This document shows, one piece after another, positions 30,695 to 56,629 of a DNA stretch of 64,000 nucleotides. Source of the stretch: Pontibacter harenae (lineage in GTDB: Bacteria; Bacteroidota; Bacteroidia; Cytophagales; Hymenobacteraceae). The stretch lies in contig NZ_JAJJWH010000003.1 in assembly GCF_020907245.1 (NCBI RefSeq), forward strand, positions 124,001 through 188,000. Direction: 5' to 3'. The position numbers and the translations under genes are program-made. Positions within the stretch are counted from its first letter, which is position 1. The number at the start of each line of letters is the position of its first letter. The notes under the pieces were generated by a model that was given only the letters and a program-made list of their open reading frames with translations, was not told the DNA's origin and ran no database searches.

Positions 30695-31633
30695 TCATTG
30701 CAGTTTCTCAAACTCAGCCTTTGTTACTTTAAAGATAGAGCCATGCCGCATACCTTTCGGAAATGATATCTTATCAGAGATATCGGTCCAGTTCTGCATA
30801 TCTTCTGACTGCACAGCTCCCATACTATGCTCAGTATACTTATCGAAGTAGACAAGCCATTTATCTCCGAGCTTTAGTGTTGTCGGCCCTTCTGCCCAGT
30901 AGTTGCCCGTAATGGGCGGCCCAGCTTCACTATAAGGTCCTGTTAAACTTTCACTATAGGCCATTCTAATATTCTTCTTAGCTGGCTCCCTCGTTTCGTC
31001 TTTCAGAAACATCACGTATCGGTTATCGTCTTTTATAATCGTAGCATCTATAACGTTAAAGCCTGGGTCGTATAGCAGCTTTGTTTCGCTAAAATTCTTA
31101 AAATCCTTGGTGGTGACGTAATACATGCGGTGGTTATACGCATCATCCTTCTCAGACTGAGTCTCAGGGTAAAGGCCTGTGATCGTAGTGGCCCAGTAGA
31201 TCATGTATTCCTTCTTCTCCTCATTATACGTCAGCTCAGGTGCCCATGTGTTACGAGCTTTAGGCTCATGCGCCATAACAGGTACAAACTGCTGCTCCGA
31301 CCAATGTAGCAAATCATCTGAACTAGCGTAGCCAAGGCCTTTCTCATTCCAGCTTACCGTCCATACCATATGAAACCTACCGTCTGCGCCGCGGATAATG
31401 CAGGGGTCGCGCATCAGTTTATCGTTGCCTGCAGTTGGTTTCAGAAAAATAGAATCGTTCTTTAGCGCCTGCCAATTATAGCCATCCAGGCTGTAAGCTA
31501 GGTGCAGCCCATCTCCATTGCCTTTAAAATAGGAAAACAAATACACCTCCTCTGCCTGCGCAGGCTGTTTCTTGGTAGAAGCACAGGAGCAAAAGATAAA
31601 TAAGATTAAAAAGAAGAACGGCAATTGCCTCAT
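30695..31633 (-). CDS. GH43 glycosidase lipoprotein of the RG-I block
   Basis: The 312-residue lipoprotein (Cys17 in IFCSC) is a small propeller enzyme. Asp76 (LMRDPCI), Asp196 (NVIDATII) and Glu248 (YWAEGPT) give the GH43 triad, although the first motif differs from the arabinan GH43 genes in this window. The segment YWATTITGLYPETQSEKDD suggests the branch found beside GH105 in rhamnogalacturonan loci, where arabinofuranosidase or galactosidase activity on side chains is known. It follows the GH105 gene by 34 bases and is co-transcribed with it. Specific activity undetermined. Confidence 0.8.
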   Translation of the reverse strand: MRQLPFFFLILFIFCSCASTKKQPAQAEEVYLFSYFKGNGDGLHLAYSLDGYNWQALKNDSIFLKPTAGNDKLMRDPCIIRGADGRFHMVWTVSWNEKGLGYASSDDLLHWSEQQFVPVMAHEPKARNTWAPELTYNEEKKEYMIYWATTITGLYPETQSEKDDAYNHRMYYVTTKDFKNFSETKLLYDPGFNVIDATIIKDDNRYVMFLKDETREPAKKNIRMAYSESLTGPYSEAGPPITGNYWAEGPTTLKLGDKWLVYFDKYTEHSMGAVQSEDMQNWTDISDKISFPKGMRHGSIFKVTKAEFEKLQ

Positions 31634-31667: not shown

Positions 31668-32819
31668 TTACTTCATCCTTATAATTTCTGTACCAGCAAG
31701 CAGGAAACAACCAAGGCCATAGTCTTCGAAATCTGGTTTGCTGGTGTACGAAACTGGCTGCCCGTCTTTAGGCTCTTTGCCCGTACCCTGCACATAGCCC
31801 AGAAAGCCATTCGGATGCACAGCCTCCTTCTCCATCGCGTTCCATGCTTTTGCAATAGCTGGCTTATACATCTTTGGGTCAAGTAAACCATTATTAACCC
31901 CCCAAGCCATACCATAAGTAAATAAAGCAGTGCCAGTCGTTTCTTTTCCACCGAAGTGGTTAGGGTCGTGCAGACTTACATTCCAGAAGCCATCCTCTCT
32001 TTGCAGCGGCATCAGTGCCTCCATCATTTCCAGGTAAGTTTTCTCATACTCCTCGCGGTGCGGCGCATCTTTTGGCAGTGTATCTAACACTCTTACAAGC
32101 GCACCTACCACCCAGCCATTGCCTCTGGACCAGTAGCAGTCTTCACCGTTTGGCGCTTTGTAAGGCGGCACAAAATCAGCATCGCGCCACCAAAGGCCGT
32201 CTTCTGGGTTATACAAACCTCCGCCTATTTCCGTTTTAGAAGTGCTGTATAAGTCATACATTTTTGCATGATAAGCAGCGGCATCCTGTGGGTAAATCTC
32301 GCCTAACTGCGCATACAGTGGCATTGCCATCATCAGAGCGTCAATCCAGGTCCAGTCATCCGATTTGCTACTGTTCACCATGTTATCCACAGATGCTTTT
32401 ATTGATTCAATTCTTTCTGGCTTCTGATCAATTTTATAAAGCTCTATATAAGTCTGCCCGCAGGTCTGGTAGTCGGCGTGACGCACATGGTCACCTCCTG
32501 TTAGGCCCCAATTATGCTTCTGCCCCCACTCTACAGCATAGTCGTAGTATTTCTGTTTTGGGTCTACTTCGTAGAGTTCCATTAACCCGATGTAGTAGAT
32601 GCCACGGGTCCAGATATTGCTGGGGCGAGTTTTATTTGTAACAATCTCCTTACCTGGGTCTGGCCATTTCTGCATAAAATAATCATTGGCAAGGGTAAGA
32701 GTTTCGAGTATCTTACTCTTCTTCGGTAGTTTTTCAGTACCTACATCCTGCGTTTTACAGGCAAAGGCAAACAAACACAAAAAGAAGCTAATCCGAACAA
32801 ATGTTTTACTGGTGGTCAT
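31668..32819 (-). CDS. GH105 unsaturated rhamnogalacturonyl hydrolase, lipoprotein
   Basis: The 383-residue lipoprotein (Cys21 in FAFAC) has an (alpha/alpha)6 barrel. Asp160 in DWTWIDALMMAMPLYAQ aligns with the catalytic Asp of the YteR type; the second conserved region is HADYQTCGQTYIEL (Asp116). It removes the unsaturated galacturonyl residue left at the non-reducing end by RG lyases. It leads the minus unit with the GH43, 34 bases apart, and is divergent from the second GH105. A candidate 10-bp direct-repeat regulatory site lies about 150 bases upstream. No RG lyase gene is visible in the window, so the lyase must be elsewhere. Confidence 0.9.
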   Translation of the reverse strand: MTTSKTFVRISFFLCLFAFACKTQDVGTEKLPKKSKILETLTLANDYFMQKWPDPGKEIVTNKTRPSNIWTRGIYYIGLMELYEVDPKQKYYDYAVEWGQKHNWGLTGGDHVRHADYQTCGQTYIELYKIDQKPERIESIKASVDNMVNSSKSDDWTWIDALMMAMPLYAQLGEIYPQDAAAYHAKMYDLYSTSKTEIGGGLYNPEDGLWWRDADFVPPYKAPNGEDCYWSRGNGWVVGALVRVLDTLPKDAPHREEYEKTYLEMMEALMPLQREDGFWNVSLHDPNHFGGKETTGTALFTYGMAWGVNNGLLDPKMYKPAIAKAWNAMEKEAVHPNGFLGYVQGTGKEPKDGQPVSYTSKPDFEDYGLGCFLLAGTEIIRMK

Positions 32820-33224: not shown

Positions 33225-34640
33225 ATGAAAGCAGAAGCAACAGATTTTATTTCTGTTAAAGAAAAGCACAATTACTTAAACTATAACTTCAGGAAGGTCT
33301 TGCTTTCCCTTGCCTTCGTAGCAAATTGGCAAACGGCACAAGCACAGACAAAACCCATCAAAATTTCAGACACAAATACACCGCTGCACGCCATGCAGCC
33401 CGACTACCCTACACCATATGGCAACACGACAGTAGAAGATATCACAAAGGTACTCACAAGGGTACACACTTATTTAGACGCCGCCACACCTGCTCGTATG
33501 GTTGACAAAAAAACAGGAAAGCCAGTTACAGACTTAAAAAAACTGAACAGCGATGTTATTATAGAGCAAGGCGACTTTCGATTAACCAGCTATGAGTGGG
33601 GAGTAACATACGCAGGGATGTTGTTAGCTGGAGAAGCTACTGGAGATGCTCGTTTCACAAACTATACAGCAAAGCGCCTGAAATTCCTGGCTGATCTGGC
33701 TCCTTACTACCAGAACGAGCTTAAGAAAAACCCAAAAGCTGAAACGCCACTGCGCCAGGTGCTGTCACCCCATGCCTTGGATGACGCAGGCGCAATGTGC
33801 GCCGCCATGATAAAGGCTGGCCGTTACGGTGTCACAACAGCTGATCTACGCCCTTTGATTGATAACTACATAGACTATATCAGCAACAAGGAGTTTCGCC
33901 TGGCCGACGGTACATTAGCACGAAACCGTCCGCTGCCGAATACCATTTGGCTGGATGACCTGTTTATGAGTGTGCCAGCGTTGGCGCAGATGGGAAAGCT
34001 AACGGGAGAGCGGCGCTACTATGATGATGCTGTAAAACAGGTGGTCCAGTTTTCTGATCGCATGTTCAACAAAGAGAAAGGCTTGTATATGCATGGTTGG
34101 GTGCAGGGTATGGAGCCGCACCCGCAGTTCCACTGGGCACGCGCCAATGGCTGGGCAGTAATGACGTTAGTAGAACTGCTCGAGGTGCTACCCCAGGACC
34201 ACCCTGGTTACCCGAAAGTTATGGCTCAACTGAGAGCGCATATACAAGGACTCGCGTCTTACCAGGCAGGTGAAGGATTCTGGCATCAACTCATCGATCG
34301 CAACAATTCATACTTGGAAACCTCTGCCACCGCAATTTATACTTATGCCATTGCCCGCGCCATCAACAAAGGCTGGATCGACAAGCAAGCTTACGGACCT
34401 ATGGTGCTGCTGGCCTGGAACGCTGTAGCGACTAAGGTAAACGAAAAGGGGCAGGTAGAAGGAACCTGCGTGGGCACAGGTATGGCCTTCGATCCAGCCT
34501 TTTACTATTACCGCCCCATTAACGTGTATGCTGCACACAGTTATGGTCCTGTTTTACTCGCAGGTGCTGAAGTTATCAACCTGTTAAAAGGAAACAAACA
34601 CGAAATAAATGATAGTGCAGTTCAATTCTCAGCCAAATAA
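33225..34640 (+). CDS. GH105 unsaturated uronyl hydrolase, second copy
   Basis: This 471-residue protein is longer than its divergent neighbour. The (alpha/alpha)6 core contains NTIWLDDLFMSVPALAQ (Asp244, catalytic position), HWARANGWAVMTLVELLEVLP and the C-terminal SYGPVLLAGAEVI shared with GH105. About 40 residues precede it: a long basic n-region (MKAEATDFISVKEKHNY...) then a hydrophobic stretch ending AQA-QT, so the signal peptide is unusually long; the true start could be downstream at a non-ATG codon. Insertions at 90-120 and 150-185 set it apart from the first GH105, suggesting a different linkage or chain length. It acts on unsaturated galacturonyl (or glucuronyl) oligosaccharides. 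Confidence 0.87.
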   Translation: MKAEATDFISVKEKHNYLNYNFRKVLLSLAFVANWQTAQAQTKPIKISDTNTPLHAMQPDYPTPYGNTTVEDITKVLTRVHTYLDAATPARMVDKKTGKPVTDLKKLNSDVIIEQGDFRLTSYEWGVTYAGMLLAGEATGDARFTNYTAKRLKFLADLAPYYQNELKKNPKAETPLRQVLSPHALDDAGAMCAAMIKAGRYGVTTADLRPLIDNYIDYISNKEFRLADGTLARNRPLPNTIWLDDLFMSVPALAQMGKLTGERRYYDDAVKQVVQFSDRMFNKEKGLYMHGWVQGMEPHPQFHWARANGWAVMTLVELLEVLPQDHPGYPKVMAQLRAHIQGLASYQAGEGFWHQLIDRNNSYLETSATAIYTYAIARAINKGWIDKQAYGPMVLLAWNAVATKVNEKGQVEGTCVGTGMAFDPAFYYYRPINVYAAHSYGPVLLAGAEVINLLKGNKHEINDSAVQFSAK

Positions 34641-34895: not shown

Positions 34896-36353
34896 ATGAG
34901 ATACTTTAAAAAGAAAACACAGCCTTTTGCTTTCCTTCTTGTTTTGTGCCTATTGGCTTCGGCTTGTACGGCTTTTAAAACTAATCCTGCTAATGACGAT
35001 TTACCTAAACTAGCTTGGTTAAAAGAGGTGGGAGCTAAGAAAATGCCTTCCAGAAAAAAAGTATATGATGCAACAAAGTACGGTGCCGTAAACGACGGTA
35101 AAACACTTAACACTAAAGCGATTCAGGCAGCCATTGATGCTTGTGCAGCCAAAGGCGGAGGCATCATCACTTTTGAACCTGGCGACTACCTTTCTGGCTC
35201 TATCTATCTTAAAAAAGGCGTTCACCTGCGGCTAGACGAGGGAGTTCAGCTGTTAGGAAGCCAGAACCTGGCAGACTATCCTGAAATAGAAACACGTGTG
35301 GCTGGCATCGAGATGAAATGGCCTTCGGCGCTGATCAATGTGCTGGATCAGGAGAATGTGGCCATCTCGGGTAAAGGCGTGGTACATGCGCAGGGTAAGC
35401 CGTTCTGGGACTTGTACTGGAACATGCGCAAAGAGTATGAGCCTAAGGGGTTGCGCTGGATTGTGGATTATGATGCTAAACGTCCGCGCACACTACTGGT
35501 TTCTAAATCTTCTGATGTTACTATCAAGGATATCACCATGAAGCAGGCAGGCTTCTGGACAGTACACATTCTTTATTCAGATCATGTTACCGTTGATGGC
35601 GTTGTCATACAGAATAACATTGACGGCCACGGTCCCAGTACCGATGGCATTGACATTGACTCTTCCTCCTATATACTGGTGCAGAACTGCGACATTGACT
35701 GCAACGACGACAACTTCTGCCTTAAATCTGGCCGTGATTGGGATGGCCTAAGGGTAAACCGTCCAACAGAATACGTCCTGATCCGTGACTGTATTTCACG
35801 CGCGGGAGGCGGCTTAATAACTTTTGGCAGCGAAACATCGGGAGGCATCCGACATGTGCTGGCGCATAACTTGAAAGCTAAAGGAACAGGTGTCGGTATT
35901 CGCTTCAAATCGGCTACTACCAGAGGAGGAACAGTAGAAGAGATTTATATGCAGCAAATAGAGATGGATGGTGTAAAGGTTCCAATCGAAGTTTCTATGA
36001 ACTGGAACCCGAGCTATAGCTATTCAACTTTACCCGAAGGTTACACTTTCGAAACGATTCCGCAGCACTGGAAAACGATGCTAAAAAAAGTAGAGCCAGA
36101 AGAAAAGGGCATCCCTAAGTTCAGAAATGTGTACATCTCCGACATCTATGTAAAAGATGCCACCAAGGCACTTTCTGCTGCTGGCATTCCGCAGTCATCT
36201 ATCGAGAGTTTCCATCTTAGTGATATCAACATAAAAGCTAAAACAGCGGGAGAAATCACTTACGCCAAAAACTGGAAGTTTAATGATGTCGATATCGACA
36301 CAGAAGATAACAGCAAAATTGAAGTGCAGAACAGCACAAACATCAATTTATAA
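34896..36353 (+). CDS. GH28 polygalacturonase/rhamnogalacturonase, lipoprotein
   Basis: The 485-residue lipoprotein (Cys24 in ASAC) is a right-handed beta-helix. GH28 motifs are STDGID (Asp250), NDDNFC (Asp271/Asp272), GSETSGG (311-317, in place of GHG) and RFKSAT (336-341, in place of RIK). It inverts and cleaves galacturonosyl linkages in homogalacturonan or the RG-I backbone; the GSE replacement is common in exo-acting or RG-type members. The following fusion gene starts 22 bases later, so they are co-transcribed. A candidate direct-repeat regulatory site precedes it. Confidence 0.9.
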   Translation: MRYFKKKTQPFAFLLVLCLLASACTAFKTNPANDDLPKLAWLKEVGAKKMPSRKKVYDATKYGAVNDGKTLNTKAIQAAIDACAAKGGGIITFEPGDYLSGSIYLKKGVHLRLDEGVQLLGSQNLADYPEIETRVAGIEMKWPSALINVLDQENVAISGKGVVHAQGKPFWDLYWNMRKEYEPKGLRWIVDYDAKRPRTLLVSKSSDVTIKDITMKQAGFWTVHILYSDHVTVDGVVIQNNIDGHGPSTDGIDIDSSSYILVQNCDIDCNDDNFCLKSGRDWDGLRVNRPTEYVLIRDCISRAGGGLITFGSETSGGIRHVLAHNLKAKGTGVGIRFKSATTRGGTVEEIYMQQIEMDGVKVPIEVSMNWNPSYSYSTLPEGYTFETIPQHWKTMLKKVEPEEKGIPKFRNVYISDIYVKDATKALSAAGIPQSSIESFHLSDINIKAKTAGEITYAKNWKFNDVDIDTEDNSKIEVQNSTNINL

Positions 36354-36375: not shown

Positions 36376-39300
36376 ATGCTAGTAACATTTCAAAAGATAG
36401 TGAAAAAGGCGTGGCAAATGCCTGCTGTACTAGCCTTCTGCCTGCTGCCACTCTCAGTACATCTTACGCTACACAAGGTGCAGGCACAAACTACTCCTGC
36501 TGTAGCAGCCTTGCCTGCCATCGATTTTTCGCATGCTGGCTACGAAGGCGGTGAAGGCGGTGGGGTTCAGATTCCTGATGTGCCAGCCGTACTTACTGTA
36601 AAACCGACTGGCAGCGACGACACCCGCTTATTACAAGCTGCCCTCGATCATATAGCTAATTTGCCTATGCAAGAGAATGGTTACAGAGGTGCGTTACAAC
36701 TGGCAGAGGGAAAATTTCTGGTTGGTGGTCAGCTTCGTTTAACAGCAGGAGGTGTAGTTTTAAGAGGAAGCGGTGAAAGGAAAACAACTATAGTTGCCAC
36801 GGGTAAAAACAGACGCAGCTTAATTGAAGCAGGAAATAACCAAGCGCCTAAACTCGATACAGCTATTAAAGTAACAGACGATGTAGTTCCTGTCGGAGGC
36901 CACACGCTTAGCCTGGAAAACGTTGAGGGGCTAAAGGTTGGAGATCAAATTGTGATAACGCGCCCCAGCACAAAAGAATGGATATCAGATTTGGGCATGG
37001 ACACTTTGAAAGGCGTTTTTCCTGACCTGCGTTTCCATTGGACACCAGGCTCCAGAAACCTCATGTGGGACCGCACAATCACGGCTGTTAACGCTGCTGC
37101 AAAGAAGATAACCATAGATGCTCCCCTCACCACAGCACTCGCACATAAGTACGGCGTAGGTACAGTAGCAAAAGTAGCGGCAGAGGCACCTCTGCTGCAC
37201 ATTGGCCTAGAGAACCTGGTACTGGAGAGTGATTTTGACAGGAACAATAACAAAGACGAAGAACATGCCTGGTTTGCTATTGCCTTAGACAATGTACAGG
37301 ATGCGTGGGTACGCTCTGTCACCGCACGTCATTTTGTTTCCTCGTCAGTACGTGTCGGGCCGCGGGCACGCAGGGTAACGGTTGTAGATTGCCAGAATGA
37401 ACAGCCTATATCAGAAATAGGCGGCTACCGCAGGCACAGCTTTTTGGTAGAGGGGCAGCAGGTGCTGGTGCAGAATTGTACAGCCGATTCAGGAGTAAAC
37501 GATTTTGCCATAGGCTTTACCGCTGCTGGCCCCAACGTGTTTCTCAACTGCACAGCCACCAACGCTCTTGGCGCCAGCGGCTCCTATGAAAGTTGGGCTT
37601 CTGGCGTTCTGTATGAAAACGTGCAAGTAGAAGGGGCTGATTTAAGATTGACTTATGACCTAGATCGGGTGCAGGCAGGCGGCTGGACGGCTGCCAACAG
37701 TGTGATCTGGAATTGCGAAGCGAAAGAGATTGTAGCAATAGGACCACCACAGGCACCTGTTGTTATCATCACCTCTTCTGCACCGCTTTATCGAAACCAA
37801 CTTCAGAAAAGACTTGGCAAACAAGCGTTCGCAGAGATCATTATTCAGTCTGCTAAAGATGCTGGTACGGTAGCAGCAACAGCACAGGAGTTCGTACCAA
37901 AAGACATTCCTCCTGCCCCACCTGTAGCATCTAAAAAGAAACTCGCTCTACAACTAATAAACGGCCGTTTTGTAATAGGCGATAAAGCACTTTGGGGAGG
38001 TGCCGTAAACGATGCCTGGTGGCTGGGGCAAACATCTCCTAACAACGCACTGGATGCAGGTAGAAGTATAGTCCGCTTTGTTCCAGGGCGCGTTGGGCCA
38101 GGGCTGACCGAAAACCTGCCTGCACTCGCTGCCAGCGTAGCGGCACAAGGTACTCCTTTTTACCAAAGCGGTCCCGCCATCTGGTACGATCGCCGCCGCG
38201 ACGACCACTCTATTATAGAACGTCCAGATGGCAATGTGTGGGCTGCATTTTACGAACTGCCCTGGGCACGCAGTGGTAAAGGAAAAGCTTGGGATGGTTT
38301 AAGCAAGTACGATGTTTCCACCTATAACTCCTGGTATTTCGAACGTATGCAGGAGTTTGCCCGCCTCTGTGATAAGCAGGGTATTGTGCTGTATCACCAC
38401 TTGTACAATAACCACAACCTGCTCGAAACCGCCTCCCACTGGATTGATTTCCCCTGGCGGCCAGCTAACAACATTAATAACACAGATCTGCCAGAACCTC
38501 CTCCGCTGGAGCCTCGAGATCGTGTACACGTTGCTAATCAGTTTTATGATGCCTCCAATCCCAAGCTTCGTGCTTTACACAAGGCTTACATCTCCCATGT
38601 GCTAGATGAGTTAGGAAAGTATGACAACATCATTTTCGGGTTAAGCTTTCAATATTCTGGCCCTGTAGCGTTTCAGAAGTTCTTTCAGCAGACGGTAGCG
38701 GAGTGGGAGCAAAAGAATAACAGGAAGGTAAAGCTCGTGCTGGATACGAGCAAAAATGTAACTGATGCCATTCTCTCCGACCCTGAGCTGGCAAAGCAGG
38801 TGGCGGTAATAGATATGCGGTACTGGCATTACTTACCTGATGGCTCTTTATGGGCACCAGAAGGAGGACGAAATCTTGCTTTTAGAGAAATGCATCCGAA
38901 AGAATTTGGAGACCCAACAACGCCTGAGCAGGTATACCGACAAGTTCGGGAATACCACAACAAATATCCAGACAAAGCCATTGTGGCCTGGCACAGCGGA
39001 GCAGGTCCTATACCTACTCTAATGGCTGGAGGAGCCCAGGTGCTGATGCGCAACCCAACTGCCGGGCATGGCCAGGGCAGAACTGTAGATTCCCATCCGC
39101 TGGATAAGTTTGTGCAGCAGCATTTAGCAGATAAGTTAATGTATATGCAACCGCAGGACGGTATACTAGCCAACGCTGAAAAAAACTGGGTTTTGGCTGA
39201 TGAAGCACAGAATACTATACTTCTATCCTCCTTACCTGGACAAGAAATGACACTCAGCCAGAAGCTCCCGAAGAAGAATTTCACAGGCTTGTGGTTTAAT

Positions 39301-39423
39301 CCAGAAACAGGAAATACCCATTCTGCTGAACTACCTAAATCCTTGAAAAAAGGAACTACCATACAGAAACCAACAGCGGAACATTGGCTCCTGTTAATCA
39401 AAAAACAAGAAGAGCAGCTTTAA
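36376..39423 (+). CDS. beta-helix plus barrel fusion protein (DUF6298-like), putative pectin enzyme
   Basis: The frame is open from 36283, overlapping GH28, but the ATG at 36376 starts a proper signal (MLVTFQKIVKKAWQM... ending VQA-QT) and leaves a 22-base gap, giving 1015 residues. Residues about 40-510 look like a pectate-lyase-type right-handed beta-helix (ALQLAEGKFLVGGQLRLTAGGVVLRGSGERKTTI; ENLVLESDF; VLVQNCTADS). Residues about 515-1015 (LINGRFVIGDKALWGGAVNDAW, FQYSGP, GLWFNPETG) look like a TIM-barrel glycosidase with a short C-terminal beta-domain, resembling what I recall as DUF6298. Conserved-looking acidic sites include IWYDRRRDDHS and IIFGLSFQYSG. Activity unknown. Two catalytic-type folds in one chain next to GH28 suggests coupled cleavage. 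Confidence 0.72.
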   Translation: MLVTFQKIVKKAWQMPAVLAFCLLPLSVHLTLHKVQAQTTPAVAALPAIDFSHAGYEGGEGGGVQIPDVPAVLTVKPTGSDDTRLLQAALDHIANLPMQENGYRGALQLAEGKFLVGGQLRLTAGGVVLRGSGERKTTIVATGKNRRSLIEAGNNQAPKLDTAIKVTDDVVPVGGHTLSLENVEGLKVGDQIVITRPSTKEWISDLGMDTLKGVFPDLRFHWTPGSRNLMWDRTITAVNAAAKKITIDAPLTTALAHKYGVGTVAKVAAEAPLLHIGLENLVLESDFDRNNNKDEEHAWFAIALDNVQDAWVRSVTARHFVSSSVRVGPRARRVTVVDCQNEQPISEIGGYRRHSFLVEGQQVLVQNCTADSGVNDFAIGFTAAGPNVFLNCTATNALGASGSYESWASGVLYENVQVEGADLRLTYDLDRVQAGGWTAANSVIWNCEAKEIVAIGPPQAPVVIITSSAPLYRNQLQKRLGKQAFAEIIIQSAKDAGTVAATAQEFVPKDIPPAPPVASKKKLALQLINGRFVIGDKALWGGAVNDAWWLGQTSPNNALDAGRSIVRFVPGRVGPGLTENLPALAASVAAQGTPFYQSGPAIWYDRRRDDHSIIERPDGNVWAAFYELPWARSGKGKAWDGLSKYDVSTYNSWYFERMQEFARLCDKQGIVLYHHLYNNHNLLETASHWIDFPWRPANNINNTDLPEPPPLEPRDRVHVANQFYDASNPKLRALHKAYISHVLDELGKYDNIIFGLSFQYSGPVAFQKFFQQTVAEWEQKNNRKVKLVLDTSKNVTDAILSDPELAKQVAVIDMRYWHYLPDGSLWAPEGGRNLAFREMHPKEFGDPTTPEQVYRQVREYHNKYPDKAIVAWHSGAGPIPTLMAGGAQVLMRNPTAGHGQGRTVDSHPLDKFVQQHLADKLMYMQPQDGILANAEKNWVLADEAQNTILLSSLPGQEMTLSQKLPKKNFTGLWFNPETGNTHSAELPKSLKKGTTIQKPTAEHWLLLIKKQEEQL

Positions 39424-39925: not shown

Positions 39926-41227
39926 TTAATTTCCGTCTGGTTTTTCTAAGCTTGCCGCAGGGCTTGGTGGCCAGTTAAAAGTTTCAAAAGCATCAGGACG
40001 AGTAGGATCGAAAGCAGGTGTATCTACAAGATAGTCTGCTAAACCGAGCTTATTAGCCTTGATGCCCTCCACCACTATTTTTGCAATCTCGTAAGCTCCG
40101 TAAGGATTAAAATGCGTGTTATCATTCAGATTCTTCTCTGGGTATATCACAAAAGCATTTTTAGAACCTTCTACTCCAAGAGCTTCATACAAGGCTGTTG
40201 TTTGGGCCGTAAGATCTATCAGCGGCACATTTTCTTCTGCTGCTACTTTTTTGGCAGCGTCTGGATACTCCCCGTGGGTGTTGTTCAGCCTCCCTTCTTC
40301 ATTAAATGATCTTCGGGCGGTTGGCGTCAGGATAACCAAGTTTCCCCCTTTCTTTTTTACCTCTCTGGCAAACAGGCGCAGGCGCTCGCTGTACGATTTA
40401 TAAGGACCGTCATTGGGTCCTTTCTCCTTTTCGTCATTATGCCCGAACTCTACAAACACATAGTCGCCAGGCTTTATCACGCTCAAAATCTTATCTAGCC
40501 TGTTGCTACTAATAAAGCTTCCTAAGGATAATCCAGACTCCGCATGGTTGGCGATAGCCACCCCTGATTTAAAAAATCGCGTAACCATCTGGCCCCAAGA
40601 AGCCCACGGTTCCTGTTCCTGATTTACCACGGTGGAGTTTCCTGCCAGAAAAACAGTTATTTGATCATCGGCTTTTTCAATCTCGATAGCATTAACAGCT
40701 GCTTTCAAGTCAAACTCAAAGGTGAGTTTGTTGTCCCAATCGAGCTTGGTCAGTTCCCTTGTCTTGAGCTTTACCTGATTTTCGTTATCAATCTTTCTGT
40801 CTTTGATGTGGACGATAAAGGTTTTTGTCTCAAACTGCCCGCGTTCCGTCTGCAGATCCTCTAGCATCAGGCGTCGGGATTCAGCTTTAACCGTTGTTCT
40901 CGTATCCCCCTTTCTATCGCCAAGCGTAAGGGTAACTTTGTAATTCCCCTCGGGCACCTTCACCGAAAAATAGAAGGGCTCGGTACTAGTAACAAAATCT
41001 CTTTTAAGGGGATCTTTCCCGCCACGATCCACATCCTGCACTTTCGTTCCGTTGTCAAACCCATACCCGATCTCATCTGTGTAGACATCCTGTGAGGAGA
41101 TTTTAGTAAAGCCTTTAGCTACTTTCCCAGCACCAAAATCAAATTTGTAAGAGGTACTCTGCGCAAAGCCTACGCTGGTAAGTCCTAGTGCCAGTGCCAG
41201 CGTACCCAAAATGGTAACTGTTTTCAT
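39926..41227 (-). CDS. rhamnogalacturonan acetylesterase (CE12, SGNH hydrolase)
   Basis: The 433-residue secreted protein (signal ending FAQ-S) has an N-terminal beta-sandwich (about 25-185) and a C-terminal SGNH hydrolase. The catalytic blocks are GNSTV (Ser198), FGHND (Asn264) and NDNTHFN (Asp369, His372). It removes acetyl groups from galacturonic acid in RG-I so that GH28 and lyases can act. The N-terminal domain (SYKFDFGAGKVAKGFTKIS) is the usual partner in Bacteroidota CE12 proteins. It converges with the fusion gene and is followed on the minus side by 343 bases before GH115. Confidence 0.93.
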   Translation of the reverse strand: MKTVTILGTLALALGLTSVGFAQSTSYKFDFGAGKVAKGFTKISSQDVYTDEIGYGFDNGTKVQDVDRGGKDPLKRDFVTSTEPFYFSVKVPEGNYKVTLTLGDRKGDTRTTVKAESRRLMLEDLQTERGQFETKTFIVHIKDRKIDNENQVKLKTRELTKLDWDNKLTFEFDLKAAVNAIEIEKADDQITVFLAGNSTVVNQEQEPWASWGQMVTRFFKSGVAIANHAESGLSLGSFISSNRLDKILSVIKPGDYVFVEFGHNDEKEKGPNDGPYKSYSERLRLFAREVKKKGGNLVILTPTARRSFNEEGRLNNTHGEYPDAAKKVAAEENVPLIDLTAQTTALYEALGVEGSKNAFVIYPEKNLNDNTHFNPYGAYEIAKIVVEGIKANKLGLADYLVDTPAFDPTRPDAFETFNWPPSPAASLEKPDGN

Positions 41228-41570: not shown

Positions 41571-44549
41571 TTACTTAAGCGTAACTTTTTCATGCGTCTG
41601 ATGCAATGTCTCTGGAACAGTAGTATAAGCTTGTTTCAGCCCTCCCAGGTCGATGGTTATATTATCTAGCACCACTCCAGGATCCATCATATAAACTTTC
41701 AGGGTATGCTTTCCCTGGCTTAGATGCGGATATTTTATCTGCCGTTTCGCCTTGTTTGCAAGCACGTTTTGCTTCCACTCTTCGCTTCTGCCGAAAGTCT
41801 GAAAATCTACGACCTCTACAGGACCGTCATCAATAGAGACAGCATAACGCATGCTGTGCTCGCTAGTAACCGGATGCATGGGCAGTGTGGAAACCGTAAT
41901 GGTAGGTGAAGCCGCTGTTAGAGTATAAAAATCATACGCCACAAAAGGTGCATTTTCTTTTAGCTCTCTCGTATCTGTTACTGGTTTTGCCTGCAACGGA
42001 ACCGCCATCAACGATTGTCCCGTATGTCCCAGGCCTTCAACCAGCGTCCATTCTCTATTCTGCTGAACTTTCTTGTCGGTATAGTGCTCTGCATTAATAG
42101 AGACATAGCCATTGCTTTCAATAAACCCTTTATAAGTAGCAAGCGCAGGATCAGATGGATTGAACGCACTCACCTTTATCTTAAATGTTTTACCTGCCCC
42201 TTTCAAGGTAATGTATCCAGTAGGCTCCGCTCGTACAGGAACTTTACTCCAGTCGATACTTACCCAGATACGCTGCTGTTTCTGCCCAAAATCAGAACTT
42301 AGCTTTCCCTTCTTTTCTGAAAGCTTTATCCATTTATCAGAAGCTGTAGCCTTCCATGAAACTGAATTGCTGCCAGTCAGGAAAAGATCAACAAAGTAAT
42401 CTTGGCTGCCCCACTCATAATATGTTGGCAGTGCAAGTTGGCTCGATGATGTAAGCGAAGAGTCTGCCATCACAAATCCTTCTGGCGCAACGCTCCATGT
42501 TCCAGAGCCACCGCTGTTTAGTTCAGGCAACACTGGCTCTTTGTAAACAGGCAGGTTGCGTGGCTTCATCGACATCATGCCATTCCACTTGCCATTAGCC
42601 AGTTGTTTGTTATAGTAATTTGTTTCCTCCACAATACCATCATAAGCTTGGCGGGAAAGTTCTGCGTAATCGCTGGAACTTGTCCGATTTTGTTTAGCAT
42701 ACAGGAGGCTTTTGTCGCGATACAGGAACTTCTTATTCATAAGGGATGCAGCCACTACAGGGTAGTATACCAACTGGTAAAAGGCATCTTTATCTGCCAT
42801 CATGCTGCGGAGCGATTTTACCTCTTTCTCCAGTGCCTCATAGCGCTCCAAGCGTTTTTGTGCTTCATCGCCAAAGTAAAAATGGTTGTATTCCGTCAGA
42901 GTAGTTTGGGTTGTTGGCTCTGTTCTGCTCCAGCCCATAAATTCAGGTCGTCTTTCAAAAGCCAGATCGTAATATGCCCACAAGCTATTGCTTATAGCAG
43001 TTGCATGGATTTCTCCGAATGTCTCTTTTACCCAATTATGCAGGTGCTTTTTCACAAAGCTGCTTTCCTGAAAAGGCTCCGCATTATAGGCCATATCCAT
43101 AAACAGGCTGATGCTGTACTCTAGCGGCTTTATGTCTCCCACATTCAGCACCCACAACTGGCGCGCCTGCATATGGTAGGCCTTCATCATTTCTTCCCAT
43201 ATCAGGGAGGGATGGGTAGAACTGAGCCAGAGGTAGTCGTGGGGTCGCCCCCAATACGAAGCATGATAATACACTCCCGACCCACCTGCTCGCAGCTGCT
43301 CCTGTGGGTTGCTCAGCCGGTGAATATAGCCGTAGTTGTCGTCAGGCCATACGATGGTGATATCTTCAGGAAGCTTCAGGCCCTGGTCATAAATATCCAG
43401 CACCTCTTTATAAGCCGTAAAAGCCTGCGGAACACTAGTTACATCTATGTTCACGTACTTTTTAAGCAGGTCGCGCTGGTTAGAGATGATTTGATCAACC
43501 ATTTTGGCTGCCTCTTTTATGTTTTTAGCGCCTTTCATGCCGCTATCGTGTTCGCCTCGCATACCTAGGGTATATATGGCATCCTGCTTGGCAGCCTTTT
43601 GCACCCGCTTCTCCCAATAAGCATGAACAGATTCCTGATTGTTGAAGTAGTCAAAAGGCCCCATGGATTTAGAGTCCCATTCGTCCACGTTGTTACGCAA
43701 CATAGGCTCAGCATGTGAGGTACCCACCACAATGCTATAAGCTTCGGCGACTGCTGTGTTACCAGGGTAATAAAAGAAGGCTTTGGTGCTGGGGTGCATA
43801 GCTGGCCAGATAAGATTGGCCTTCAGGCGAAGCAACAGTTCAAAGATGCGGGCATAAGTGTTAGGACCAACGTCTTTGATGTCTTTGTCCATATTCAGAG
43901 CGGCCCATGGCTGTAGTCCCCAGTCTTCGTCGTTCAGGAAAATACCGCGGTACTTTACTGATGGCGGCCCCTGCACCAGCTTGCCATTTGTTATATATAA
44001 GTTCTCCTGTTGCCTGGGCTGCACATCTGCCCACCAATACCAGGGCGATACGCCTAACCGCCGCGAGAGCTCGAACACGCCATAGGCAGTTCCACGTTTA
44101 TCGCTTCCAGCAATTGCCAGAGCCTGCTTTATATTACCAGAAGGCTGATTTACCACTGCTATGCTGTAGCTTTCCCACTTTCCTCTAATGTCATCTATGT
44201 TTAGTTTATTGGCATCGATCAGTTTGTCCACCAGCTCAGACTGGCCGATGGTGCCGATAATAACTGGATAGCCTGAGATATCTTGTAAGCTGTTGCTACT
44301 CTCAACTACTGCCTTTCTGCTTGTTATACTTCGGATATCCTCGCTTAAAGCCTCTGCCGCAATACGAACGACTTCCGCATCATCTGCATCTATAAAAACA
44401 GGCGCAGCTTTAGCTTTATGAACAAGAGGAAAAGCATTACGCGTGGCTTCGACAGAAACCTTAAGGTCATTCTTAGAAAGGTCCTTCGACTGAAGGCTAA
44501 AACCTGTCAGAACATAAACTAAAATAAAAGGGATGCTTATTCTCTTCAA
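41571..44549 (-). CDS. GH115 alpha-glucuronidase-like enzyme
   Basis: The 992-residue secreted protein (signal about 1-21) has the GH115 plan: N-terminal alpha/beta domain (about 30-180), a TIM-barrel with RGIFLNDEDWGLQPWA (202-217), NLIWPAMHPS and GMRGEHDSGM, a helical bundle (about 480-690) and a C-terminal beta-sandwich (about 800-992). GH115 removes (4-O-methyl)glucuronic acid side groups, classically from xylan. Placement in an RG-I locus without xylanases suggests glucuronic acid on pectin or arabinogalactan side chains as substrate. It stands alone with gaps of about 340 and 360 bases on either side. Confidence 0.93.
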   Translation of the reverse strand: MKRISIPFILVYVLTGFSLQSKDLSKNDLKVSVEATRNAFPLVHKAKAAPVFIDADDAEVVRIAAEALSEDIRSITSRKAVVESSNSLQDISGYPVIIGTIGQSELVDKLIDANKLNIDDIRGKWESYSIAVVNQPSGNIKQALAIAGSDKRGTAYGVFELSRRLGVSPWYWWADVQPRQQENLYITNGKLVQGPPSVKYRGIFLNDEDWGLQPWAALNMDKDIKDVGPNTYARIFELLLRLKANLIWPAMHPSTKAFFYYPGNTAVAEAYSIVVGTSHAEPMLRNNVDEWDSKSMGPFDYFNNQESVHAYWEKRVQKAAKQDAIYTLGMRGEHDSGMKGAKNIKEAAKMVDQIISNQRDLLKKYVNIDVTSVPQAFTAYKEVLDIYDQGLKLPEDITIVWPDDNYGYIHRLSNPQEQLRAGGSGVYYHASYWGRPHDYLWLSSTHPSLIWEEMMKAYHMQARQLWVLNVGDIKPLEYSISLFMDMAYNAEPFQESSFVKKHLHNWVKETFGEIHATAISNSLWAYYDLAFERRPEFMGWSRTEPTTQTTLTEYNHFYFGDEAQKRLERYEALEKEVKSLRSMMADKDAFYQLVYYPVVAASLMNKKFLYRDKSLLYAKQNRTSSSDYAELSRQAYDGIVEETNYYNKQLANGKWNGMMSMKPRNLPVYKEPVLPELNSGGSGTWSVAPEGFVMADSSLTSSSQLALPTYYEWGSQDYFVDLFLTGSNSVSWKATASDKWIKLSEKKGKLSSDFGQKQQRIWVSIDWSKVPVRAEPTGYITLKGAGKTFKIKVSAFNPSDPALATYKGFIESNGYVSINAEHYTDKKVQQNREWTLVEGLGHTGQSLMAVPLQAKPVTDTRELKENAPFVAYDFYTLTAASPTITVSTLPMHPVTSEHSMRYAVSIDDGPVEVVDFQTFGRSEEWKQNVLANKAKRQIKYPHLSQGKHTLKVYMMDPGVVLDNITIDLGGLKQAYTTVPETLHQTHEKVTLK

Positions 44550-44911: not shown

Positions 44912-46600
44912 CTAATTGCTATTTGCCGCCTTCTCAGGTGTAAATTTATAACCCCAGTCAAACCCTAACGCTTCCAACAGCGCGACACGCTCTGGTTCAA
45001 GATGCGCTTTATCAACTCGTATCCTACTGGTCCACTTTCCTAGCTTAGGGTCCTCCTTCCATTTTACAGGAACCCGCGTGTGGCCGTGCTCCTTTTTGAA
45101 CGCCACCAAACGGTCATACATAACCTCCCATGGCAATACGGTTCTTTTGCTCAGGTTCCAGTCAAAACCAATCTCATTCAGCAGCTCTGTTTGTGAAGAA
45201 GCCAATGTTATTTTGTTCGATTTTACTCTGTAAACCCACGCAGCCAGTTGCGGATTTGGTTTCCACAGGAAGGGAACACGTGTATAGCCAAACTGCTTTT
45301 TGAAGTCAATCAGGGCATCGTACATCTGCATCCAATATCCTTCCTGTACACTCCATGGAAACCTGATATCATGAAGTCTTTCAATACGGTCTTGCGACAG
45401 TTTGCCTTTGTAGAAAAGTTTTCGCTGCAAGCTGGTCCAGCGCTGAAGCGCAGGATCTATTTTAAGAGAAACCTGAAAAGTGCCGTGCACCTGCATATAA
45501 GCCTTTAGCTTTTCAAACTTACTTTCCCACTGGGTATTATGAGCAGATTTCAACTGTTGTTGCGTGTTTCTGCTCCACACAAAATCCAGGTTTTCAAGCT
45601 TCTTCTTTTTAACTGATCCGAGTTTGCCTTTTGCTTCCAAGGCTCTTTGCGAAGCAACCCATGTACCTAACTGTTTGTTCTCGCTAAAACTAACTGGGAC
45701 GAAGCTATGGCCGTGTTGTTGGTGGTAGGCTTGCAGTTGTTCGTATTTCTCATCCCATTTTCTCTTTTTGATCCCTTCGCAGCTCCATATAAACCCAATC
45801 TCATCCAGCCTCTTTTCACGTCCGACTGATAACAACTTATTCTTTTTGGCGAGTCTTTGCCTTTCGATCCAGCTTACAAGCTTTTTATGTTTACATGGTA
45901 CTCTGCAGTGGCCATACGTTTTGTGAAAGGAGGCCACCTTTTGGAAGTATAGCTCCCACTGAGACTCATATACGTCTTTTATGCTCCAGACAAAGTTAAG
46001 CGCACTTAGTTTCAGCTTCCGATCTTCCCTTATTTTGTCTTTAGCATACATCTTTCGCTGCATCATTACCCAATGCGCAAGCTGTTTATCTTTTGCCCAA
46101 TTTTGAGGCACCATACTAAGCCCAAATGTGGTGTAAAAGTCTTTTAGCTTCCAGTACATTTGCTCCCACCGATGATCCCTGCTGATGGGCATATCCCAGT
46201 AAACGCCCAGGCTGTCCAGCTTCTGAAACTGGTCTTCAGAGAGGTACCTTCTGCCAAGAACTTGCCTCACCAACCAATCTTTTAAATCTTCATGCTTCTG
46301 GTCTGTGGGCAGGCACGAGTGTCCGTGCGTTTGCACAAACTCTGCAAGCTGCCTATACATGGTGATCCAGGAGAAATCCTTTTCTTCAAAACTAAAACGA
46401 AGCGCTGCTAACTCCACTTTGAGTTCATTCGGCAGCATGTGGCTGATGCGTCGTTGAATACTAACCCACTGCGCCAACTGGTCATCAAGACTAGCATCAA
46501 TAGGTTTACCCTGCTTGCAAAGCGCTTCCAACTTCTGATAATTATGACTCCATACATTCAGAAAGTTTTCGTCAAACAACTTCTTCTCTACACTTGCCAT
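44912..46600 (-). CDS. helicase-associated (HA) repeat protein, no helicase
   Basis: The 562-residue protein consists of about eight tandem repeats of 60-70 residues with the pattern W(E/D)xxYxxLxxFxxxHGHxxVPxxxxxxxxLxxWVxxQR, ending in a short helix with LxxLxFxW. Repeat starts are visible at FSWITMYRQL, RWEQMYWKL, QWELYFQKV, KWDEKYEQL, QWESKFEKL, YWMQMYDAL and PWEVMYDRL, plus a degenerate first copy. These match the helicase-associated domain family (PF03457), usually C-terminal to a SNF2/DEAD helicase; here no ATPase motif exists. It has no signal peptide and is very basic, so nucleic-acid binding is plausible. It sits between GH2 (81-base gap) and GH115 without a functional link. Confidence 0.82.
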   Translation of the reverse strand: MASVEKKLFDENFLNVWSHNYQKLEALCKQGKPIDASLDDQLAQWVSIQRRISHMLPNELKVELAALRFSFEEKDFSWITMYRQLAEFVQTHGHSCLPTDQKHEDLKDWLVRQVLGRRYLSEDQFQKLDSLGVYWDMPISRDHRWEQMYWKLKDFYTTFGLSMVPQNWAKDKQLAHWVMMQRKMYAKDKIREDRKLKLSALNFVWSIKDVYESQWELYFQKVASFHKTYGHCRVPCKHKKLVSWIERQRLAKKNKLLSVGREKRLDEIGFIWSCEGIKKRKWDEKYEQLQAYHQQHGHSFVPVSFSENKQLGTWVASQRALEAKGKLGSVKKKKLENLDFVWSRNTQQQLKSAHNTQWESKFEKLKAYMQVHGTFQVSLKIDPALQRWTSLQRKLFYKGKLSQDRIERLHDIRFPWSVQEGYWMQMYDALIDFKKQFGYTRVPFLWKPNPQLAAWVYRVKSNKITLASSQTELLNEIGFDWNLSKRTVLPWEVMYDRLVAFKKEHGHTRVPVKWKEDPKLGKWTSRIRVDKAHLEPERVALLEALGFDWGYKFTPEKAANSN

Positions 46601-50024: not shown

Positions 50025-50083
50025 CTGAATACTTTATTCCCAACGGAAAGGCAACTGAATACTTTATTCCCAACGGAAAGGCA
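50024..50083. repeat. perfect 30-bp tandem duplication at the susD 3' end
   Basis: Two identical adjacent 30-base units (50024-50053 and 50054-50083). The second unit contains the last six codons and stop of susD; the first is a non-coding copy just downstream of the stop and abuts the terminator arm. Confidence 0.9.
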
Positions 50084-51803
50084 GGAACCAGTTTTCTTTG
50101 TTCATCAACTTTGACCGTACCGCCGAAGCCTGTGGATTTCCTGCTTTCTGCAGCTTTTCATACACACGGTCAGCCAGAAAGGCAGGATCGTTTCTTCTAA
50201 TCGCAATACGAAGCAAATCAGGCCACCTGTTTCCTTCAAAAGCCAGTTCCAGTGCTGCTTCTTCTATAATTTTATCTTCGATATGCGTTACCAAACCATT
50301 CTGGTCTGTTAGAACAGGAGCTGACCTGATAGAAAGATCATAGTATGCTGTTGAGTCTATTTGGTTAGTTCTTACACCAATTCTGCCTCTGATACCTGTG
50401 TTTCTGTACCAAGGCCCTCTATAGTTAGGAAAGTCGCCCTGCCTGCCATCAAAGTCATAAGGAGCAGCATCGAGAGTGCGCTGTATGTCTGTGACATCTT
50501 TGTTAATCGAAAGGGAAGGACGTGTTATCGGATTCCAGGTTGGATCGTAAGTAGCTCTGATGCCGTCATTTAGCAAAGCATAAGCAACTTTATGCTTCCC
50601 GTCTCGGTTTGCAGCCTCTGCAAATCGCAAATGTACAAGAGAAGCACGTGCTAAAAACCAGTTACCTGGTGCTTCACGAGGAAGAAGAGGATTTATGTTT
50701 TCCAAGTACTTCTGTACAACGGGTTTACCTGCTATGTACTCTACAGCGGCATAAAACCTCGGATCAATAGGTGTGTTGTCTAATCTGGTTTCTGCATTCC
50801 ATTTATCAATTATCGACTCAGATGGTTTAAGTAAGTAGGCTCCCACGTTGTTTGAAAACAGATCCACGAAAGGATTCTTAGGGTTAAAGTTTTTATTGAA
50901 AGGCAGATCCCAGATAAACTCAAAGTTCCAGTTTCTGGACTGCGATCCTGTAAAACCATCTTCATGAGAAAAAGGATATCCCCAGGCAACTCTGTACTGC
51001 CCGTAGTAATTATCTAAGTTGCTGTCGGTGGTGCCGGTTTCCATAACGGCTTTGTAATGCGTAGCGGCCTGTGTATAATTGCCTTTCCATAGGTGCAAAT
51101 CGCCGAGCAGCAAGTGTTTGTTTATAAAGAACTTCTGTGTGTTATAGCCATCGGTAGTAGCCATTAAGGAAGCACTCTGCGGATAGGGTTGCATGTAAGG
51201 AAGGGCCTCTGTAAATCCAATCAGCTCATCCAGCAGCTGGTCTAACTCCAACACAGGAAACTTAGACTGGTCCTTCAGGTCTTCTACAGTAGCCAGCGGA
51301 TCAGTAACATAAGGCACTCTTCCGAAGTGAATACCCAACTGATAGTAAACCCAGCTCCTTAGCGCGCCAACATCAGAATACCGCTGTGCATACTCAGCCT
51401 GCTCCATTTTATTTTCCTGCACCATCTTGTCGAAGTTTGCCAGAACATCGTTGCAGTTAATAATAACCTCATAAAAAGGCCGTGGATCGGCATATTTGTT
51501 TGTTGCGTCTACGCTATGGTTGTTAATCTGGATAAGATCGGGATTGGCAGACGCATTTTCCGTTACATTCAGCAGATCGCCTCTAAGCTCGTTCAGCACT
51601 ACATACTGCTCAGCCAGGTTCATAAACTTGCCATAAACCCCTATCACAGCTGCATCGGCATCAAACACGTTCTGGTACGTTTGGTCTTTGTCGAGTGCAG
51701 TCTCTGGTTTTATATCGAACGTTTCTTCGCAGGAGAGTGTGGCTATGCCAAGCAGTACGAATGGCACCACACGCATCAATGGTCTGAATAAATTCTTTTT
51801 CAT
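50064..51803 (-). CDS. SusD/RagB lipoprotein, third pair
   Basis: This 579-residue lipoprotein (Cys25 in TLSC) has the SusD segments FDIKPETALDKDQTYQNVFDADAAVIGVYG, SDVGALRSWVYYQLGIHFGRVPYV and the C-terminal EEAALELAFEGNRWPDLLRIAIRR, ending WFLPFRWE. It captures glycan at the surface with the SusC encoded 33 bases upstream in the operon. The end of the gene carries the 30-bp duplication. RG-I oligosaccharide is the likely ligand from context only. Confidence 0.93.
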   Translation of the reverse strand: MKKNLFRPLMRVVPFVLLGIATLSCEETFDIKPETALDKDQTYQNVFDADAAVIGVYGKFMNLAEQYVVLNELRGDLLNVTENASANPDLIQINNHSVDATNKYADPRPFYEVIINCNDVLANFDKMVQENKMEQAEYAQRYSDVGALRSWVYYQLGIHFGRVPYVTDPLATVEDLKDQSKFPVLELDQLLDELIGFTEALPYMQPYPQSASLMATTDGYNTQKFFINKHLLLGDLHLWKGNYTQAATHYKAVMETGTTDSNLDNYYGQYRVAWGYPFSHEDGFTGSQSRNWNFEFIWDLPFNKNFNPKNPFVDLFSNNVGAYLLKPSESIIDKWNAETRLDNTPIDPRFYAAVEYIAGKPVVQKYLENINPLLPREAPGNWFLARASLVHLRFAEAANRDGKHKVAYALLNDGIRATYDPTWNPITRPSLSINKDVTDIQRTLDAAPYDFDGRQGDFPNYRGPWYRNTGIRGRIGVRTNQIDSTAYYDLSIRSAPVLTDQNGLVTHIEDKIIEEAALELAFEGNRWPDLLRIAIRRNDPAFLADRVYEKLQKAGNPQASAVRSKLMNKENWFLPFRWE

Positions 51804-51836
51804 AAGATCGTATGTTTTATCGAAGAAGTCTTTTTA

Positions 51837-54800: not shown

Positions 54801-55022
54801 ATCGTCTGTCAGTGCTGCAGAGTAACCAGGTGCACTTATACTTACACCTGGTACTGGACGTCCAGAGGTAGCATCTTTCACTATACCTGTAACCACAGTT
54901 CCGCCAGTGTATTGTCTTGCAACCGTAACCGAATCTGCGCTCTGTGCAAAAAGCCACACTGGCGAACCAGCTAAAGCAAAGAGAAACGACAGCTCTTTAA
55001 TTCTTTTAGTAATTATCTGCAT
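51837..55022 (-). CDS. SusC/RagA TonB-dependent transporter, third pair
   Basis: The frame is open from 55103, but that start overlaps the preceding FAS1 gene. The ATG at 55022 gives a normal signal (MQIITKRIKELSFLFALAGS, cut near LFAQ) and 1061 residues with a 28-base gap. Domains are carboxypeptidase-regulatory-like (TGIVKDATSGRPVPGVSIS), plug (ITVLKDATSLYGSKGANGAIMITT) and a barrel ending LLGVRLGL. The TonB-box stretch is atypical: instead of EVVVVGYG it reads NSLYEIANLPGGLDKPLNHTT. This divergent plug is often seen in SusC proteins paired with FAS1 lipoproteins. Confidence 0.92.
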   Translation of the reverse strand: MQIITKRIKELSFLFALAGSPVWLFAQSADSVTVARQYTGGTVVTGIVKDATSGRPVPGVSISAPGYSAALTDDNGNFKLNIPDPSAAIVITGEGFQRKEVAVKGQSNVTVSLHEESFNSLYEIANLPGGLDKPLNHTTGAVSSLNPKQAKWATQAETPENYLQGRVAGLNVIRRSGEPGSGANLILRGYSSLYTSNQPLIVVDGMIYDINDYGGSLINNHFTNPLSNIDIKDIDNITVLKDATSLYGSKGANGAIMITTAHAEQLATKIDFATYAGVNQAPDALPVMDAYNYRVYLSDVLKSSGYSDQEIQELPFMNDAPDAPGYYNYHNNTNWQKEVFDKSLNKNYYLKVSGGDNIAKYALSLGYLDQGGIIKNTDFNRYTTRFNADLNMSPKLKVQSNLGFSYSEQNLAEQGLAFKTNPIYLSLVKAPFLSRNEVSDEGITSPNLSDVDVFNIGNPASVVNYVSSTGQNYRFFGSIIFNYQFNEHLSASTQFGITYDKVRESFFVPRRGTLADTLESAVADSRMGNQIKRLFAVYNDSRLSYNKRFNQVHHLNAAVGFRYNDNNSERDYGLGFNSATDELRSIGTGSTALRRAGGDIGRWNWMSIYSGLNYGYLDKYFLSMNLSMDGSSRFGQQAEGGVGINGNRFGVFPSVGAAWLVSSEDFMANLGFIDMLKVHTTYSITGNDDIGNYNSRQFYVSQNLLGLQGLIRGNIGNPELQWETYKKLNAGVDLALLNEKVSLSGNVFHSTTDNMLIQERLISAAGLEYMYTNNGAMQNRGVELSLNSRLINNETFKWDVGLNIATIKNEITKLPGDRMLTNFAGANILTQVGQQANLFYGYKTNGVYTSDGEASNAGLTTRTPDGTYTAFSGGDMRFVDMNNDNVIDEEDRVVIGNPNPDFTGMFSSRVTYKKLSLDAAFTFSKGNDIFNYTRAQLESMAGTNNQLQSVQNRWRANGQVTDMPKATWGDPMGNARFSDRWIEDGSYLRLRSLTLNYDLAIQNRFLKNASVYATANNLFTVTNYLGYDPEFSASSIIFAQGVDVGLIPQFKSVLLGVRLGL

Positions 55023-55050
55023 AATATTGTGTTTAATATTATTAAGGTCT

Positions 55051-56508: not shown

Positions 56509-56629
56509 CTTTCAATAATTTAATTAAAAGGAGATGAAATGCTTTAAGCACGCTGGCAGTAAGCTTGCCTCTGCCAGAATACCTGAAGCTATCGTTTTGT
56601 TGAATTACTGTAGCACATTGGTTTACCAC

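Follow-up and report, generated by a model that had tools for sequence, protein, structure and literature searches.

The DNA analysed here is a 64,000-nucleotide stretch of the Pontibacter harenae genome (contig NZ_JAJJWH010000003.1, positions 124,001 to 188,000; hereafter the window). One of its genes (36376..39423, + strand, open from ATG to stop) encodes a 1015-residue protein composed of a right-handed beta-helix, a barrel matching the Pfam family DUF6298 and a C-terminal beta-sandwich. The protein belongs to clade B of two clades of such proteins and is best read as a neofunctionalised paralogue, whose most likely role is that of a pectin glycosidase in which the acid chemistry has changed. 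The fuller reading that we favour, held at close to even confidence, is that it is a probably secreted protein of pectin degradation, that the clade B barrel is a working glycosidase whose catalytic acid has been moved or dispensed with, and that the helix is more likely to bind uronate than to act on it. This reading is built on residues that separate the two clades, the conservation of the barrel, predicted structures and the genes that surround members of each clade.

At least 590 stretches of the genome collection encode a relative of the window protein. Of these, the 80 most similar to the window protein were retrieved, so that clade A is sampled in part. The 79 sequences counted comprise 61 of clade A and 18 of clade B, including the window protein. 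One locus, L101 (loci are given as L numbers), was left out of all clade counts, and L097, whose frame ends early, was also left out of residue counts; L060, a contig-edge fragment, was kept in clade B. Residue counts thus refer to 61 clade A and 18 clade B sequences, and context counts to 62 and 17 loci, respectively. In a helix-half tree (37 clade A, 18 clade B and 10 outgroup helix proteins), built with a quick method and supported by Shimodaira-Hasegawa-like approximate likelihood ratio (SH-aLRT) values only, clade A, clade B and the outgroup each fell on one side of a branch with values of 95, 99 and 99. None of the six outgroup proteins scanned with Pfam (of 10) has a barrel match. Members of both clades are found together in at least two assemblies (L047 and L075 share a P. 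beigongshangensis record prefix, L048 and L098 a P. qinzhouensis one), so the clades are paralogues.

The residues that distinguish the clades are concentrated in the barrel. When a fixed difference is defined as one letter in at least 93% of clade A and another in at least 90% of clade B, nine of 910 compared columns separate the clades (579, 630, 655, 718, 759, 770, 796, 838 and 887), and all nine lie in the barrel half. As 432 of these columns belong to the helix, the binomial p for an all-barrel outcome is 0.003 or 0.0045, ignoring relatedness. Among the nine is a reciprocal exchange: position 759 is Glu in 61/61 clade A sequences and Gln in 17/18 of clade B, while position 838 is Gln in 61/61 and Glu in 17/18, respectively. 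Three further clade B sequences that are not copies (L026, L028 and L034) also have Gln759 and Glu838. L034 itself is a clade B barrel in a 549-residue frame near a contig end, and may represent either a barrel that stands alone or a truncated or disrupted gene.

A set of stand-alone proteins of about 484 residues (L016-L024) are distant kin of the DUF6298 barrel. The five scanned with Pfam (L016, L017, L018, L019 and L021) match no other Pfam family and conserve an NE motif at the place of 759, and two that were checked have no NCBIfam match. An hhalign comparison aligns the stand-alone barrels to DUF6298 with probability 99 (E 1.6e-18). Since they carry Glu at this place in 5/5 cases, Glu is likely the ancestral state at 759.

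Outside the exchanged positions, the barrel retains a set of residues invariant in 79/79 sequences: R606-R608, D609, D610, H611, E627, D646, H680, E684 and D797; D813 is found in 60/61 clade A and 18/18 clade B sequences. The original prediction had expected conserved acids in the barrel, and six of these invariant residues (D609, D610, E627, D646, E684 and D797) are indeed acidic. In the structural model of the window protein, strands at 752-758 (read as beta4), 809-813 (beta6) and 868-872 (beta7) place Gln759 directly after the first of these, D813 at the end of the second and Glu838 in the loop past beta6. In clade A, Glu759, placed where beta4 ends, would serve as general acid. In clade B, with Glu759 changed to Gln and 838, presumably on the catalytic side, changed to Glu, acid catalysis may have moved. 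Alternatively, the acid may no longer be needed, as in plant myrosinases: an excerpt of PMC9632345, citing Burmeister 2000, describes plant myrosinase (GH1) as a glycosidase with its acid/base Glu replaced by Gln. The likeness extends to the manner of working only, as myrosinase belongs to another family and its cofactor use and substrate are not comparable.

Selection within clade B is consistent with a barrel that still works. In all 10 clade B pairs compared, the barrel shows the higher amino-acid identity of the two halves. The ratio of nonsynonymous to synonymous divergence (dN/dS), a rough measure here because dS is high, is 0.04-0.08 for the barrel (computable in 5/10 pairs) and 0.07-0.13 for the helix (6/10). 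Because the barrel combines low dN/dS with the higher identity, we conclude from these comparisons that the changed clade B barrel is under strong purifying selection and is not decaying. The barrel would then be the selected working part of the protein, a glycosidase whose substrate is a side group of pectin or an oligosaccharide.

The original prediction described a 1015-residue protein joining a pectate-lyase-type helix to a DUF6298 glycosidase-like barrel, and the reading frame, Pfam and the AlphaFold2 model all agree with that description. The DUF6298 profile (PF19815) matches residues 506-887 (E 1.6e-129, 433.4 bits against a cut-off of 28.1); relative to the profile, positions 1-84 are unmatched in the window protein. 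The AlphaFold2 model has a mean predicted local distance difference test score (pLDDT) of 87.5 and a predicted template modelling score (pTM) of 0.88. Together with fold searches, it predicts a right-handed beta-helix at residues ~46-500 (36511..37875, +) with Asn at 375 where clade A has His, a (beta/alpha)8 barrel of GH140-like fold at ~505-930 (37888..39165, +) and a beta-sandwich at ~931-1015 (39166..39420, +). The sandwich is weakly Collagen_bind_2-like (Pfam E 0.0041; 17.4 bits, with the cut-off at 22), and a Collagen_bind_2-like domain also ends the GH140 protein of L084. The helix half has no Pfam match of its own at E<=0.01. In Foldseek, a model of a clade A member (Pontibacter L075; pLDDT 89.0, pTM 0.89) likewise matched both kinds of structure, beta-helix and GH140. 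The structure alignments were built from 55 (A2) and 46 (A5) sequences.

The helix-barrel architecture is present in the full-length relatives examined, so a new fusion specific to the window protein was rejected. Relatives that match over the full length, at 34-76% identity, are common, and the joining of helix and barrel is therefore not a chance event. The window protein thus follows the same helix-barrel plan as other DUF6298 proteins, and differs from clade A in having Q759/E838 instead of E759/Q838. A DUF6298 match at E<=0.001 is present in 20 of 296 genomes of the phylum, and 16 genomes have one that exceeds the cut-off. The literature searched yielded no paper naming DUF6298, in line with the original prediction, which knew of no catalytic assignment for the barrel; it likewise yielded no paper naming DUF4955 and no relevant paper on BT1013.

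The closest characterised fold for the barrel is that of the GH140 apiosidases. Foldseek ranked one of them first with the window model (8t9w_B, E 6.5e-12). VIA-align superimposed barrel and sandwich (model residues 524-1012) on 8t9w_A with Z 21.8 (root-mean-square deviation, rmsd, 3.6; 357 residues aligned), and on 5msy_B, the GH140 enzyme BT_1012, with Z 20.2 (rmsd 3.9; 368 aligned). With the clade A model, Foldseek placed 8t9w ninth, and no GH140 stood among the 50 VIA-align matches listed, which were mostly helix rows. The original prediction had proposed that the barrel may form a new family; a structural match to a characterised one did emerge (Z 21.8), yet neither by sequence nor by its acids is the protein a GH140. 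Identity to GH140 is 10-13%, and there is no match to PF13204 at E<=0.01. A GH140 alignment has two acids invariant in 43/43 sequences, D187 and E280 of L132, presumably the catalytic pair, an Asp at the end of beta4 and a Glu at the end of beta7. At the place of the Asp, matched through strand order and the hhalign alignment to stand-alone barrels, the window protein has Gln759; nothing conserved in clade A or clade B corresponds to the beta7-end Glu, and the window protein has no acid at 870-878. Membership in GH140 was rejected on these grounds. Profile comparisons were equally sparing: hhalign of the DUF6298 protein against GH140 aligned only the C-terminal sandwich (probability 17 with clade A, 41 with all sequences), forcing the two into a global alignment gave nothing, and the match of the stand-alone barrels to GH140 is limited to their last 138 columns (probability 90). 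The link between the barrel and GH140 is thus one of predicted structure, drawn from fold searches. A PDB sequence search with the window protein gave no match at E<=1, and one with the profile of alignment A2 gave five weak matches, all in the helix half (7chu_A at 4.5e-6, the rest at E of at least 0.21).

The helix resembles enzymes of uronate-containing polysaccharides. VIA-align matched it (~70-469) to a K1 capsule lyase (7w1c_D, Z 29.0), the epimerase AlgE6 (5lw3, Z 26.1) and a GH28 polygalacturonase (1bhe, Z 25.0), with the folds alike and identities of 10%, 17% and 14%, respectively. The window DUF6298 protein has no Glyco_hydro_28 match at E<=0.01, while the neighbouring GH28 gene matches at 1.3e-26. 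Five helix residues (E295, H297, E347, R352 and R353) are kept in 79/79 sequences. His375, a putative catalytic residue, occurs in 59/61 clade A and 0/18 clade B sequences (Asn in 13 of the 18), and in an alignment of 37 clade A, 18 clade B and 10 other helix proteins it is also found in nine of the 10 others. A helix lacking His375 would more likely hold a galacturonate chain for the barrel than cut it, although residual lyase activity that feeds the adjoining GH88/GH105 genes is possible.

The helix also shows a distant similarity to PL29 (the BT_3328 family, NF058554), at E 3.1e-4 for the window protein and 6.7e-13 for the clade A member L114; the window protein scores 19.1 bits, below the NF058554 cut-off of 1100. 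Excerpts of PMC6994673 and PMC9067506 describe PL29 as a surface endo-lyase acting on glycosaminoglycans. None of the 198 genomes searched has an NF058554 member over the cut-off (the best PL29-like protein scores 406.6 bits), so the comparison is with PL29-like proteins only. In an alignment with seven of the nine proteins from the PL29 profile-search loci (L146 and L147 left out), His stands in the 375 column in 2/7 and one column later in 5/7, opposite Asn375-Asp376 of the window protein, which makes the age of His375 uncertain beyond the clade A and other helix proteins that carry it. A further group of helix proteins without a barrel (L125-L130, L141-L145 and L148), some with DUF4955 or F5/8-type C domains, stand between the DUF6298 helix and PL29.

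Gene context differs between the clades. Several loci have short flanks (L053, L060, L070, L078, L098 and L118) and context matches needed E<=1e-10 or 1e-15, so all context counts are lower bounds. A GH140 gene occurs in 38/62 clade A flanks and in 0/17 of clade B; in 37 of the 38 it lies directly downstream on the same strand within 363 bp, and in L106 it is 5.8 kb away. The operon of L084 runs in the order DUF5123 protein, pectate-lyase-like protein, 541-residue protein, DUF6298 protein, GH140, GH43, BT_1020-like propeller and SASA esterase. Clade A flanks carry a BT_1020-like gene in 42/62, an L084-type GH43 in 41/62 and the SASA esterase in 26/62 cases, each being 0/17 in clade B. Genes for the pectate-lyase-like protein (58/62), the 541-residue (TSP3) protein (58/62; possibly the same signal counted twice if the two are homologous) and a GH78-like protein (30/62) are also frequent in clade A, and all three occur in a single clade B locus of 17, L058. 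BT1020 acts on rhamnogalacturonan II (RG-II). An excerpt of PMC7939467 describes BT1012 as the beta-apiosidase and BT1021 as an alpha-arabinofuranosidase of RG-II breakdown. On the strength of these counts of RG-II-like operon neighbours, clade A is likely to act on RG-II.

Clade B neighbours, in a Pfam scan of 81 of 115 neighbours and among the matches listed (25 of 118 families), include SusD proteins, BD-FAE-type esterases, GH88/105, GH43, GH28, GH2, PL11-type lyases and pectinesterases. GH43 genes other than the clade A type account for 3/81 neighbours. As GH28 is found in 5/17 and GH88/105 in 4/17 clade B loci, no single partner gene defines this clade. In Rufibacter locus L045, as in the window, the GH28 gene immediately precedes the DUF6298 gene (173 bp away; 77% identical to the window GH28). 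When clade B flanks were examined for ties to the RG-II-like operon, the clade A-type GH140, GH43 and BT_1020-like genes were found in 0/17. The original prediction had named rhamnogalacturonan I (RG-I) as a possible substrate; the context of clade B points to pectin in general and does not single out RG-I, and that of clade A points to RG-II. The two contexts are nevertheless not wholly distinct, as judged from the shared neighbours, and the likeness of the window GH43 to its clade A counterpart speaks for some overlap in substrate.

Several observations weigh against the favoured reading. The Glu/Gln exchange is not strictly coupled, since L052 has Glu at both 759 and 838 and L058 has Gln at both. 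The position of Glu838 is unsure, with a mean pLDDT of only 66-69 over residues 831-850, and the invariant loop acids E627, E684, D609 and D610 could be catalytic in place of the proposed Glu759. The dS values are near or past saturation, and for the pair L050/L056 the barrel ratio is not below that of the helix. GH88/105 neighbours occur in only four of 17 clade B loci, and the contexts of the two clades are tied by the 48%-identical GH43 genes of the window and the L084 operon and by the three clade A-type neighbours of L058.

These points bear on how the protein is best explained. A more specific proposal, which we regard as unlikely as formulated, is that a catalytic carboxylate was relocated in clade B from beta4 to the loop past beta6, giving a new pectin glycosidase, with clade A an RG-II enzyme beside GH140. 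We also think it improbable that the clade B barrel is merely a pectin-fragment binder, a pseudo-glycosidase, in a protein that serves as a binding or presenting factor or has the helix as its sole enzyme. That would account for the loss of Glu759 and for the fact that no acid is conserved where beta7 ends (870-878), but it sits poorly with a Glu gained at 838 in 17/18 sequences, with a barrel that is the more conserved half in every pair, and with E627, E684, D609, D610 and D646 remaining invariant throughout both clades.

Rather unlikely, too, is a chain of two enzymes, in which the helix would cut a uronate backbone by hydrolysis or beta-elimination and the barrel would then remove a side group. 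The original prediction had suggested two active folds working in sequence; both folds are present, but the idea is weak for clade B, where His375 (0/18) and, in 17/18 sequences, Glu759 are missing. Purifying selection on both halves where computable, the lyase- and polygalacturonase-like helix, its five invariant residues and two adjoining GH88/GH105-type genes that could use unsaturated products are all in keeping with such a chain; a PL11 gene elsewhere in the genome could also supply the GH88/105 substrates, and His375 is only putatively catalytic. Far less probable than any of these is a divergent GH140 apiosidase. GH140 is the best-ranked barrel fold and the C-terminal sandwich aligns weakly to it, yet the missing PF13204 match and the loss of both GH140 acids argue otherwise, and the many clade A relatives that adjoin a true GH140 gene would be redundant. 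The neofunctionalised pectin glycosidase remains our preferred account of the clade B barrel.

The surroundings of the gene in the window fit this account of a pectin-related protein, a setting that the original prediction had also assumed. The GH28 gene (34896..36353, +; Pfam E 1.3e-26) ends 22 bases upstream of the DUF6298 gene on the same strand; the order proposed originally is thus correct, and co-transcription of the two, which had been asserted, is plausible. Other in-frame ATGs for the DUF6298 gene lie at 36283 (a longer frame that overlaps GH28) and 36418. Its N-terminus looks like a signal peptide when judged by eye, and the 1015-residue protein is probably secreted. Upstream lie two GH88/GH105-type genes, one encoding an unsaturated uronyl hydrolase (33225..34640, +; Glyco_hydro_88 E 3.2e-87) and the other at 31668..32819 (-; E 1.6e-84), as well as a GH43 with a BT_3657-like N domain (30695..31633, -; identified with Pfam), whose 48% identity to the clade A operon GH43 of L084 extends over 289 residues. 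Downstream, Pfam identifies a GDSL esterase with a galactose-binding-like domain (39926..41227, -) and a GH115 (41571..44549, -). GH2, two SusC/SusD-like pairs and genes for an L-arabinose isomerase, a sodium symporter and an FGGY kinase are also found around it in the window, and this assemblage makes the neighbourhood, by its gene content, a pectin and arabinose setting.

Within the pectin cluster there is also a 562-residue protein (44912-46600, -) with seven helicase-associated (HA, PF03457) repeats, no helicase domain and no other Pfam family at E<=1e-5, and at 50064-58306 (-) a SusC/SusD-like pair adjoins two fasciclin-domain proteins. No frame of the window matches the L084 GH140 at E<=1e-5. 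The genome as a whole (~88% complete) has, in addition to the PL11 gene, one GH140-profile match over the cut-off (79 bits, on another contig) and one below it; no BT_1020-like match and no PF00544 match was found in this assembly at that completeness.

Few plant polysaccharides are as complex as RG-II. For clade A, the recurrent position of a protein to which the literature searched assigns no function, just upstream of an apiosidase gene, narrows its possible substrates to a short list. Clade B supplies a clean natural contrast, with nine fixed barrel changes that include a reciprocal Glu/Gln exchange. If the favoured reading is true, there would be grounds for a new CAZy family divided into two subfamilies.

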